The notes under the pieces: model-generated
What the model saw: the letters and a program-made list of their open reading frames with translations, nothing else
The model's database searches: none
Told to the model about the DNA's origin: nothing
Assembly (NCBI GenBank): GCA_029975915.1
Contig: JARKOC010000138.1
Coordinates: 62,001 to 126,000, forward strand
Direction: 5' to 3'
Origin: Bryobacteraceae bacterium
Lineage (GTDB): Bacteria; Acidobacteriota; Terriglobia; Bryobacterales; Bryobacteraceae
Length of the DNA: 64,000 nt
Made by a program: the position numbers and the translations under genes
In this document: positions 7,704 to 60,865 of the stretch, piece after piece
How the letters are laid out: each line of letters starts with the position of its first letter
Position numbering within the stretch: the stretch's first letter is position 1

Positions 7704-9773
7704 TCAGTCTTCCAGCGCGAACGCCAGATACGACCCGCCGGAGACATTCTTCCACTTCCCGCCACCCGCCCCAATCACGACATACTGTTTGCCGTTCACC
7801 ATATACGTGGCCGGGCTCGCATTGCCCGCCGCCGGCAGTTCATACTCCCAAAGCAGCTTCCCGGTCCGTTTATCAAAGGCGTGGAACTTTCTGTCCACAT
7901 TGGTCGCCCCGATGAACAACAAACCACCTGCGGTCACCACGCCGCCGCCGTAGTTCTCCGAGCCTGTCACGGCAGAACCCTGGGCTGTCAACGCCGGGAT
8001 TTCGCCGAATGGGATCCGCCAGGCGTACTCCCAGGTATCTACATTGAGGGCATTAAGCGTTCCCCACGGCGGAGTGATCGCCGGGTAGCCGTCAGGATCC
8101 GTAAACCGGATATATCCGTCGAGGTTGTACTTCAACCAGTAGGGATTCGATGCCGGCATCGTCACGGCTGCATCCTCTCCTGTCATCAGGAACCGGGTGA
8201 GGGTTTTGGAGACTTCCTCCGGGTAATGCGCGAAGGCGGGCATCCGCCCGGCGCCTTTGCGGATCTTGGTTTCCGCAGCCTGCGCGTCGGTTCGTTTGGC
8301 AAGGCCGGTCAGCGCCGGGAACTCCGGCGGGCTGCCCGACAAGTCCTGCTTGTGGCATGAGGCGCAATCCTGTTGATAAAGAGAACTCGCCTTCATCTCT
8401 CTGACAGGCGGTTTTCTCGGCACCAGTTTCAGAATCCAGGCCATCTCGTTCGAATTGATGTAGAGCAGCCTCGACTCAGGATCAAACGAAGTCCCGCCCC
8501 ACTCGGCCCCGCCGTCGAAACCGGGAATCATGATCGTCCCTTCCAGTGATGGAGGCGTGAATTGCCCTCCCTTTCGATAGGTTTCGAACCTCTTCAGAAT
8601 GTCGGCCTTCGCCTCGGGAGTTCGTTTGGTCACGAGTTCGGGGGTGAACTCCTGACGAGCAAAGGGCTCTGGTTTCAATGGTATAGGCTGCGTCTTAGCC
8701 AGCTTCTCGCCATCGATGGCCGATGCCGGAACGGCCACCTCCCTGTACGGATTCAGCACCCTGCCGGTCGTCCGGTCGAAGAACCAAACATGGCCCGACT
8801 TGGTGACCTGCGCCACGGCATCGATGACCTTTCCGCTCCTCCGGATGGTGAGAAGCGTCGGTGGCGACGGCAGGTCACGGTCCCAGACATCGTGGCGAAC
8901 AAACTGGAAATGCCAGATCCGTTTGCCGGTCCTTGCGTCCAGCGCCAGCAGGCAGTTTGAGAACAGATTATCGCCATGGCGGTTGGCGCCGTAGAAATCG
9001 AAGGCCGCCGACCCCGTCCCGGCGAAGACCATTCCGCGCTTCTCGTCGAGTGCCAGACCAGACCACGAATTCGCCCCGCCGGTCGTTTTATACGCCTCCG
9101 GCGGCCAGGTCTTGTGGCCAAATTCGCCAGGACGCGGGATGGTGTGGAAGCTCCAGACCAGTTTGCCGGTCCGCGTATCATAAGCCCGAATGTCGCCTGG
9201 GGCCGACGGTAGCCCTTCCGGCACGATCGAACCGACGATCAGTTTGTCCTCAAAGACCACGCCCGGCGTCGAGACCGAGACGTTCAACCCTTCCACTGGC
9301 CGTCCGAGCCCTTCCCGCAGGTCGATCCGGCCATTCTGGCCAAACGAACTCACCGGCTTGCCAGTCTTCGCATCAAGGCAGTACATCCATTGCCGGACTG
9401 CGAGGTAAAGCCTACCATTCCAGTGCGTTAGGCCCCGGTTACGCAGTTTCGATTTCACTTCGGTCCCATCCCAGGGATCGAACCGCCAGATCTCCCGCCC
9501 GGTGGCCGCATCCAGCGCGGCGACGTTCAGCTTTGGCGTGACGGCATACATGACACCGCCGATGACGAGCGGATTCGACTGCATCTCGGAGTCAGGAAAC
9601 TCCTGATTCGAATCCCACCGCCAGGCCAGCTTCAGCTTGGCGACGTTCGATGTGTTGATCTGGTTCAGAGCCGAAAAGTGCGTCTGGGCAGGCGAGCCGT
9701 GGTAGAACGCCCAATCCACGTTCGACTGGCCGAAAGCCACAGCGGCAACGAGAAAGATCAACGCAAACCTCAC
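7704..9773 (-). CDS. PQQ-dependent dehydrogenase with embedded cytochrome c domain
   Basis: Protein of 689 residues with a GTG start and a cleavable signal peptide (MRFALIFLVAAVAFGQS). Repeated propeller-blade motifs (ALDAATGREIWRFD, AYDTRTGKLVWSFH, AFDKRTGKLLWEYE) identify the quinoprotein alcohol/glucose dehydrogenase family, which oxidises alcohols or sugars in the periplasm. A haem site CASCH lies at about residues 468-472 in a cytochrome c segment inserted before the last blades. This suggests direct electron transfer to the respiratory chain. The substrate cannot be read from sequence. The gene overlaps the upstream Gfo/Idh/MocA gene by GTGA (9770-9773), so the two are translationally linked. 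Confidence 0.92.
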   Translation of the reverse strand: MRFALIFLVAAVAFGQSNVDWAFYHGSPAQTHFSALNQINTSNVAKLKLAWRWDSNQEFPDSEMQSNPLVIGGVMYAVTPKLNVAALDAATGREIWRFDPWDGTEVKSKLRNRGLTHWNGRLYLAVRQWMYCLDAKTGKPVSSFGQNGRIDLREGLGRPVEGLNVSVSTPGVVFEDKLIVGSIVPEGLPSAPGDIRAYDTRTGKLVWSFHTIPRPGEFGHKTWPPEAYKTTGGANSWSGLALDEKRGMVFAGTGSAAFDFYGANRHGDNLFSNCLLALDARTGKRIWHFQFVRHDVWDRDLPSPPTLLTIRRSGKVIDAVAQVTKSGHVWFFDRTTGRVLNPYREVAVPASAIDGEKLAKTQPIPLKPEPFARQEFTPELVTKRTPEAKADILKRFETYRKGGQFTPPSLEGTIMIPGFDGGAEWGGTSFDPESRLLYINSNEMAWILKLVPRKPPVREMKASSLYQQDCASCHKQDLSGSPPEFPALTGLAKRTDAQAAETKIRKGAGRMPAFAHYPEEVSKTLTRFLMTGEDAAVTMPASNPYWLKYNLDGYIRFTDPDGYPAITPPWGTLNALNVDTWEYAWRIPFGEIPALTAQGSAVTGSENYGGGVVTAGGLLFIGATNVDRKFHAFDKRTGKLLWEYELPAAGNASPATYMVNGKQYVVIGAGGGKWKNVSGGSYLAFALED

Positions 9774-59285: not shown

Positions 59286-60865
59286 TTTTGATGAGCCGGG
59301 CCGTACAGGACTCGCCCCGGCCGATTTCCAGTCATACTTCCATCGGCAAGAACGGCAATTCCGTTTACCCAAACATGGGTGACGCCAACGGCGTATTGAT
59401 GGGGATCAAGGAAAGTGGCTTTGTCGGCGACGGTGGCCGGATCGAACAGGACAAGGTCGGCGATCATGCCTTCCCGGATCAATCCGCGGTCGCGCAGCCC
59501 CATGCGGTTGGCGGGCAGCGAGGTCATCTTGCGGACGGCATCTTCGAGCGTAAGGACTCCGCGCTCGCGGACATAGACGCCGAGGACACGGGCGAAGGTC
59601 CCATAGTTGCGCGGATGCGGAACGGTGTTGCCCTTGGCCAGGATGCCGCCGTCGCTGGCGATCATCGTGTTCGTATAGCGCATGATGCGCTCCACATCGT
59701 CCTCACTGATGGCGTGGTAGATGGCTGAACAGCCGCCTTTCAGTTGGATCTCGATGGCGATGTCGGCAGCGTTTTCGGGCGTGGGTTCCTGGTTGCGGGC
59801 GCGGGCGAGATCGGCAAGAGACTTGCCGCTGAGCGAGGAGTCAACACTGCAGGAAGCCAGGACAACGTTTTTCGGGTCGCCGGCGCCGCGGTCGTTCAGG
59901 ATGCGGTTGACGATTTCGGCCTTGATTTTGGCGCGGGATTCAGGCGAGGCGAGACGCTCGGCCAGGGCCTTCGCGCCGCCAGCAAGCGACCATTGCGGAA
60001 ATAGGGCGCCGGTGCCGGTGGAGGAGGCGGTGTAGGGATACTGGTCGATGGTTACATCGACGCCGCGGGCGCGGGCCTCCTCTACCAAACGAAGCGTCTC
60101 GGCAGACCTTCCCCAGTTGGATTTGCCAATGATCTTGTGATGGGTGAGTTGCGTCGGGAGGCCGCCCTCCTCGCCGATCCGGATCGTCTCGCGGACGCTG
60201 TCGAGGATCTGCGCAGCCTCGTCCCGCATATGCGAAACGTGGATCCCGCCAAGCGAACCGGCGACCTTGGCGATTTCGACAACGTCTTCCGTGGCCGCAT
60301 AGTTGCCGGGGACATAGAACAGCCCGGTGGAAAGGCCAAATGCGCCGTCCAGCATGGCCTGGCGCACCAGGTCCTTCATCTTGCCGATTTCGGCAGGCGT
60401 GGCATGCCGGTTCTCGGAGCCCATGACGCGGGAACGGATGGTCCCGTGCCCGGCGAGCGTGGCGAAGTTGATGGCGATGGGCGTGGCGGTGAGTTTGTCA
60501 AGAAAGGGTTTCAGCGGGATGGAGGAGGAGCCGTCCTGTCCTTCGAGAAGGGTGGTGACGCCCTGGCGGATGTAGTTTTCAGCGGAAGGAACGGAGAAGA
60601 TGCCACCGCGGCCGTGGGAATGGATGTCTATAAATCCGGGGGAGAGGATTAGACCGCGGGCGTCAACGGTTTGTTTGGCCTTGGCGCCGGCCAACTGTCC
60701 GATCGCGGCGATCTTTCCGCCGGCTATAGCGACATCGCCCATCATCCAGGGGTTGCCCGCGCCGTCGAGGATGCGGGCGTTGCGGATAATCAAGTCGTAG
60801 TTCGCGCCGGGAGCCAGAGCGGACAGGAGAAGAAGCAGAGCGGCCAACCTCGTCATCTTGACCAT
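59282..60865 (-). CDS. Exported N-acyl-D-amino-acid deacylase-like amidohydrolase
   Basis: Protein of 527 residues with a signal peptide (MVKMTRLAALLLLLSALAPGA). The amidohydrolase start YDLIIRNARILDGAGNP and metal motif FIDIHSHG (H82, H84) are followed by THHKIIGKSNWGRS, VTIDQYPYTASSTG and MIASDGGILAKGNTVPHPRNYGTFARVLG, all typical of D-aminoacylases. It would release D-amino acids from N-acyl derivatives, perhaps from cell-wall or siderophore products. First gene of a pair with the methyltransferase, divergent from the LarA-like gene. Confidence 0.92.
   Translation of the reverse strand: MVKMTRLAALLLLLSALAPGANYDLIIRNARILDGAGNPWMMGDVAIAGGKIAAIGQLAGAKAKQTVDARGLILSPGFIDIHSHGRGGIFSVPSAENYIRQGVTTLLEGQDGSSSIPLKPFLDKLTATPIAINFATLAGHGTIRSRVMGSENRHATPAEIGKMKDLVRQAMLDGAFGLSTGLFYVPGNYAATEDVVEIAKVAGSLGGIHVSHMRDEAAQILDSVRETIRIGEEGGLPTQLTHHKIIGKSNWGRSAETLRLVEEARARGVDVTIDQYPYTASSTGTGALFPQWSLAGGAKALAERLASPESRAKIKAEIVNRILNDRGAGDPKNVVLASCSVDSSLSGKSLADLARARNQEPTPENAADIAIEIQLKGGCSAIYHAISEDDVERIMRYTNTMIASDGGILAKGNTVPHPRNYGTFARVLGVYVRERGVLTLEDAVRKMTSLPANRMGLRDRGLIREGMIADLVLFDPATVADKATFLDPHQYAVGVTHVWVNGIAVLADGSMTGNRPGRVLYGPAHQK

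Follow-up and report, generated by a model that had tools for sequence, protein, structure and literature searches.

Why should a single nine-letter word, TTCGTTTGG, recur eleven times, on both strands and in different reading frames, within 64 kb of the DNA of an uncultured acidobacterium? The stretch in question, hereafter the window, comprises 64,000 nucleotides (positions 62,001 to 126,000 of contig JARKOC010000138.1 from Bryobacteraceae bacterium, assembly GCA_029975915.1). A first-pass annotation made from its letters alone had compared the word to the DNA-uptake sequences of Neisseria and Pasteurellaceae, with segregation or restriction motifs as other options. We find that the word, in its ten-letter form GTTCGTTTGG, is far above chance within a single small group of Acidobacteria, all uncultured, and not in the relatives tested. 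It is in genome-wide excess in two relatives of one sublineage, has a sharp core, occupies both strands and all reading frames, and is retained between species above the level of matched words. Its likeness to the self-recognition words used in DNA uptake points to a putative function of that kind, which is not proven.

Within the window, all eleven sites were recovered at the coordinates and on the strands first reported, and the early estimate of about half a site by chance was close to the mark: 100 dinucleotide-preserving shuffles gave a mean of 0.60 and a maximum of 3, and an order-4 Markov model gave 0.71. By likelihood ratio, no 9-mer of the window is as over-represented as TTCGTTTGG, and the top 10-mer is this word as well; as had been noticed, eight of the eleven sites are preceded by G and read GTTCGTTTGG. 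According to a simple codon-based gene caller made for this analysis, nine sites lie in genes and two are intergenic. The nine occupy five of the six combinations of orientation and frame, which bears out the earlier remark that protein conservation does not account for the word, and genic sites pooled with those of the relatives use all three frames on both strands instead of one frame of one codon pair. Codon or peptide conservation was accordingly rejected as a cause. The density of 172 sites per Mb belongs to a window that was picked out because of that density, and values per Mb are valid only from whole-genome counts.

Such counts were made in two close relatives. The nearest matches of the window's polA are from Bryobacterales metagenome-assembled genomes (MAGs) of the Acidobacteriota, namely Bryobacteraceae MAG23 (L011, 89% over residues 410-799) and, second, Candidatus Solibacter sp. 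PR.3.38 (L009, 82%). The former locus belongs to the genome designated G002 and the latter to G001; G024 and G125 are the other two genomes of their genus. Relative to the reversed word as a control, TTCGTTTGG occurs 150 vs 19 times in G001 and 157 vs 14 times in G002 (8 and 11 times the control), 35 vs 16 in G024 and 23 vs 4 in G125. The corresponding counts for GTTCGTTTGG are 112 vs 3, 104 vs 2, 18 vs 2 and 7 vs 0. The reversed-word control understates the Markov expectation: an order-4 model scaled from a sample to a G001-like genome predicts ~29 nine-mers and ~9 ten-mers, and for this reason G024 and G125 are not to be called enriched. The G001 counts surpass the same expectation ~5 times (9-mer) and ~13 times (10-mer), so that the excess over a Markov model, on which the first-pass annotation had made its proposal depend, holds in relatives of the window.

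The longer form AGTTCGTTTGGTC, with at most one mismatch allowed, stands out in G001 (89 vs 3 for the control) and G002 (94 vs 3) alone among 237 genomes of the family, and not in the same-genus G024 (3 vs 7) and G125 (3 vs 3). Next in the family are G077 (27 vs 10), G213 (24 vs 10, its copies partly tandem) and G172 (16 vs 3), and among 396 genomes of the phylum, G002 included, the highest after G002 is G513 (26 vs 23). Elsewhere, G191 (84 vs 14) and G040 (60 vs 11) carry TTCGTTTGG above its control but lack the longer motif, and a different word may be involved there. Array-like copies of TTCGTTTGG at a spacing of 56 or 48 bp, in contigs C94 and C194 of G148 and C9 and C35 of G049, are probably unrelated.

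Profiles of the sites yield a consensus of approximately gAGTTCGTTTGGTCa with a sharp ten-base core, A then G before it, T, C and A after it, and nothing clear beyond; among 12-base words, single mismatches in the core are rare and changes at the edges common. The motif can be described as ~14 bp long, with the core GTTCGTTTGG and soft edges (gA...TCa). When 9-, 10- and 12-mers are ranked by likelihood ratio, the motif comes first at each length in 1.18 Mb of G001, and again in smaller samples of G001 and G002, the samples from these genomes having been selected partly because they contain sites; at 14 bases a different repeat ranks top in the G001 sample. No comparable word was conspicuous in a small sample of G125. 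A rival word that led the ranking in a small sample of G024 was discarded, 11 of its 13 copies coming from one repeat-rich contig. In the same genome, some 7-20 kb into locus L230 (contig C10), diverged repeats ~2 kb apart share a recurrent word and probably represent a family of repeat-protein genes.

The alignment of G001 with G002 covers 189 kb at 88.9% identity. Of 25 places with the word in it, 10 have it unaltered in both genomes, compared with 146 of 739 for control words of the same composition (p ~0.02; the retention counts are halved from two-direction values of 20/35 and 292/885). Nine of the eleven window sites have an aligned relative; at three of these (8621, 9340 and 60085) one relative or more retains the core, and the other six differ by at least two bases or a gap.

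Relative to order-3 expectations for each compartment, sites are in excess both in genes and in gaps, in G001, in the G002 sample and in the window. By length, intergenic sites are too frequent in G001 (22 of 74, 6.3 expected) and in the window (2 of 11, 0.9 expected). In a pool of 121 sites, which includes three from a further G002 sample, 93 are in genes and 28 are intergenic; the densities per kb are 0.057 in genes, 0.114 in codirectional gaps and 0.145 in divergent gaps; convergent gaps, represented by 12 sites, reach 0.625 (p ~0.0001 vs other gaps), ~11 times the genic density. The enrichment of intergenic inverted pairs, which the first-pass annotation had proposed to test, is weak: the excess consists mostly of single sites and is strongest in convergent gaps. 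Among genic sites, 58 are in sense and 33 in antisense orientation, for order-4 expectations of ~4.0 and ~5.4. A Pfam scan (E 1e-10) of 30 of the 46 site-bearing genes of G001 assigned ~9 to housekeeping functions by our count, among them PGK, Pta, two tRNA synthetases, LpxI and a ClpC-like protein; for six no family was assigned, and families of transposases, integrases or phages were absent from the 30.

As the best single reading of these data, which we hold tentatively, the word is an uptake-sequence-like chromosomal mark. The mark would be lineage-specific, ~14 bp long, carried on double-stranded DNA and read by a sequence-specific protein; DNA of the same kind carrying it may be preferentially taken in or recombined, and the word would then accumulate wherever genes tolerate its presence. 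The likeness to uptake sequences rests on a word that is unpolarised, sharp-cored, placed in any frame within genes, frequent in permissive gaps and over-represented on the sense strand. To this extent the comparison drawn by the first-pass annotation stands, as the best single explanation of an excess that holds in relatives; the function itself is only putative. Uptake sequences are short (~9-13 nt) over-represented words, as this one is genome-wide in G001 and G002 and also in the window. They lack a genome-wide orientation bias, in agreement with the orientation of neighbouring sites and the comparison with GC skew given below. The DNA uptake sequences (DUS) of Neisseriaceae, as PMC3630211 and PMC12616744 describe them, are likewise contiguous words, ~10-13 bp long, whose inner core is sharp; they are found in genes and permissive gaps and confined to clades. 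The word described here differs from them in being unrelated in sequence and phylum, with a much lower number of copies per Mb in G001 and G002, a strong clustering of sites, and neither receptor nor PilT found. One orientation is commoner in reading frames in known uptake sequences, including the uptake signal sequences (USS) of Pasteurellaceae, according to PMC2346458, and the same is true of our 58 sense and 33 antisense sites. In contrast to the USS, the site profiles have no evident AT-rich downstream segments, and there is no gene-end bias.

Several results weigh against an uptake function. The copy number in G001 and G002 is only ~30-33 per Mb. Uptake sequences number hundreds to thousands per genome, and these two MAGs have 150 and 157 nine-mers and 112 and 104 ten-mers. 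The sites are strongly clustered, 17 of the 66 G001 gaps being shorter than 1 kb where 2.5 are expected (maximum 9 in 2000 runs of a model that spreads sites uniformly over contigs whose lengths were partly interpolated, 100 of the 112 G001 ten-mer sites being used). Such clustering is not predicted by a simple uptake drive. In a scan of 200 family genomes, the 9-mer alone surpasses its reversed control elsewhere as well, for example in G120 (126 vs 40), G065 (113 vs 40) and G191, and genomes with such an excess, such as G120 and G191, lack the longer motif; the 9-mer surpasses its control in G125 too. The G002 sample shows no intergenic excess by length (3 of 33, 2.8 expected), the 121 pooled sites show no gene-end bias of the Pasteurellaceae type, and the hairpins at intergenic sites (in 10 convergent, 9 codirectional and 5 divergent gaps) are no stronger than at other intergenic points. 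A general association with terminators was discarded on this ground. The housekeeping share of site-bearing genes is a plain count within the 30 genes scanned.

Among the competence and pilus genes, ComEC and DprA count in favour of uptake. ComEC was found in five of six genomes (G001, G002, G024, G003 and G004, and not in G125) and DprA in all six, so that G001 and G002 possess both; as motif-free relatives possess them too, they are not specific to the motif. Among four genomes that are MAGs or of unstated completeness, none has a PilT, PilQ or ComEA above the curated cut-off. In a control set of 14 genomes, the numbers above it are 5, 1 and 5, respectively. One of the best matches to the PilT model is PilB/GspE-like, partial secretin matches occur in all four genomes, and G001 lacks any ComEA match whatever. 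A PilB/GspE-like gene adjoins a PilC/GspF-like gene in G001. N-methyl pilin-like genes number 7, 7, 7 and 5 per genome; all seven of G001 are matched in the motif-free G024 (51-83% identity) and in G002, and no clade-specific pilin that might serve as receptor candidate was present among those detected. We do not file the word as a DUS or USS, in view of the failure to find PilT or a receptor, the low copy number and the clustering of the sites.

The main rival to an uptake-related mark, which we rate as possible though improbable, is a binding site for an unknown chromosomal protein, such as a nucleoid organiser, a transcription roadblock or a global regulator, gained in the sublineage and maintained by selection on chromosome structure or transcription ends. 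The sharp asymmetric core, the clustering and the high density in convergent gaps would all suit such a site. So would a tendency, seen post hoc, of pairs closer than 5 kb to face outward (11 vs 3 in G001, 4 vs 0 in G002), which longer gaps reverse (8 vs 17 and 1 vs 6; permutation p 0.008 and 0.04). The G002 pairs draw on a minority of its 104 ten-mer sites, some pairs are orthologous so that the two genomes are not independent, and the window itself shows no such preference (1 vs 1, p 0.65). This explanation sits less well with 93 of 121 sites lying inside genes in all frames and with divergent (promoter) gaps being far poorer than convergent ones, and its candidate protein is still hypothetical, no dedicated search having been made. 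Outward-facing pairs would also suit a Chi-like word, given that Chi acts in the processing of linear fragments from their ends, and a word spread through genes and gaps genome-wide recalls both Chi and the FtsK-orienting polar sequences (KOPS), both of them chromosomal words in excess that a recombination or translocation motor reads. Here, however, strand polarity along the replichore, judged from neighbouring sites in place of an assigned direction of replication, fails to appear: of 66 gaps in G001, 27 separate neighbours of like orientation (35 of 85 with G002 added), compared with the 62.5% expected under a strand bias of 75%, the value for Chi in Escherichia coli (p ~0.0003). On this basis strand polarity was rejected. 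Site strand and the GC skew around the site are unrelated, agreeing in 49 of 118 cases, site occurrence shows no link to the strength of the skew, and the motif is longer than the short, G-rich Chi words. A polar motif, and with it the segregation option raised at the outset, is consequently unlikely. The restriction option fares no better, as restriction-modification targets are usually palindromic or bipartite and are avoided, whereas this word is asymmetric and enriched.

An element acting in RNA, whether a terminator tail, a small-RNA target or a site for an RNA-binding protein, would account for the preference for the sense strand and for convergent gaps, and the word does follow a GC-rich stem in the window and in contig C25 of G001. 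These are also the two places where a close pair surrounds a stem, without any overall excess of hairpins. Antisense sites are still ~6 times their expectation and intergenic sites lack stronger hairpins, and we consider this explanation improbable, much as the polar motif. Clustering and an origin in one sublineage might further suggest that the sites are remnants of a small mobile element or targets for one, and a single alignment of G001 with G024 (65% identity) does have a 15-base gap spanning exactly the motif. Since conservation by eye ends within ~5 bases on either side, and 44 of 47 compared rows (both directions counted) have ungapped substitutions over the site, this origin is very unlikely.

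If the word is an uptake-sequence-like mark, it could belong to a third, independently evolved uptake-sequence system, located in the Acidobacteriota, young, and served by a receptor other than the ComP/PilT-driven pilus machinery; we regard this extended proposal as doubtful. It would have been caught young because it is present in one sublineage and absent from sisters in the same genus. PMC12616744 names Neisseriaceae and Pasteurellaceae as the sole families that possess such words. The literature matches listed for uptake sequences in Acidobacteriota, a coverage that leaves out most subscription papers, include no report of one; those listed for this word and for competence in Acidobacteria have nothing on the motif, and by title none of those listed as containing the word itself concerns a bacterial genome motif. 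A third case in another phylum, complete with word-less sister species, would make the origin of such systems open to study from sequence. Even as another kind of protein-binding site, the word would represent a genome-wide gain of ~100 or more sites in one clade.

The individual window sites are distributed as follows. A PQQ-dehydrogenase-like gene (7704-9773, minus strand) contains three: TTCGTTTGG preceded by G at 8291..8299 (+), with 4 mismatches in G001, and the cores of AGTTCGTTTGGTCA at 8621..8629 (+) and AGTTCGTTTGG at 9340..9348 (-), each identical in G002 with 1 mismatch in G001. The core of AGTTCGTTTGG recurs at 14681..14689 (+) in the called gene 14414-15601 (-), with 3 mismatches in both G001 and G002. 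The core of AGTTCGTTTGGT, at 18580..18588 (+), lies in the called gene 16890-19166 (+), which has a weak, below-cut-off match to a LIC_10190-family membrane protein. TTCGTTTGGT is found at 27405..27413 (+) in a DUF3108 gene (26820-27515, +), with 2 mismatches in G001, and at 60085..60093 (-) in an amidohydrolase-like gene (59282-60865, -), its core identical in G001. A GlcD-like gene (38901-40292, +) carries the core of GTTCGTTTGGTC at 39310..39318 (+), and a ThuA-domain gene (42722-44161, +) carries TTCGTTTGG at 44067..44075 (+).

The two intergenic sites form an inverted pair. Its left half, the core of GTTCGTTTGG at 50031..50039 (-), comes directly after a stem when read on the minus strand; its right half, the core of GTTCGTTTGGTC at 50090..50098 (+), is upstream of polA (50124-52523, +). 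The stem-loop between them (50042..50063) has nine pairs and is terminator-like on both strands by a consensus scan. The earlier description of a pair inverted around a terminator is right in that the sites flank a nine-pair stem with a T-rich tail, but they are not at gene ends: the flanking genes are divergent, LpxC-like on the minus strand and polA on the plus strand, and the pair lies between their starts.

Two further observations concern the surrounding DNA. Contigs C1, C2 and C6 of G001 display GC skews from about -0.28 to +0.28 (10-kb bins) in domains of some 20-100 kb, situated in L141-L151, L181-L190, L159 and L201-L206. Where the domains are strongest, the skew at third codon positions, taken on the contig strand, is as large as about ±0.6 in genes of either orientation, and gene direction alone is therefore no explanation; these unexplained swings are possibly more unusual than the motif. 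Milder swings occur at 28-40 kb and 56-64 kb of the window. At its left end, two adjacent plus-strand genes (21-2651 and 2648-5278) each combine a PknB-type kinase domain with TolB-like propeller repeats.

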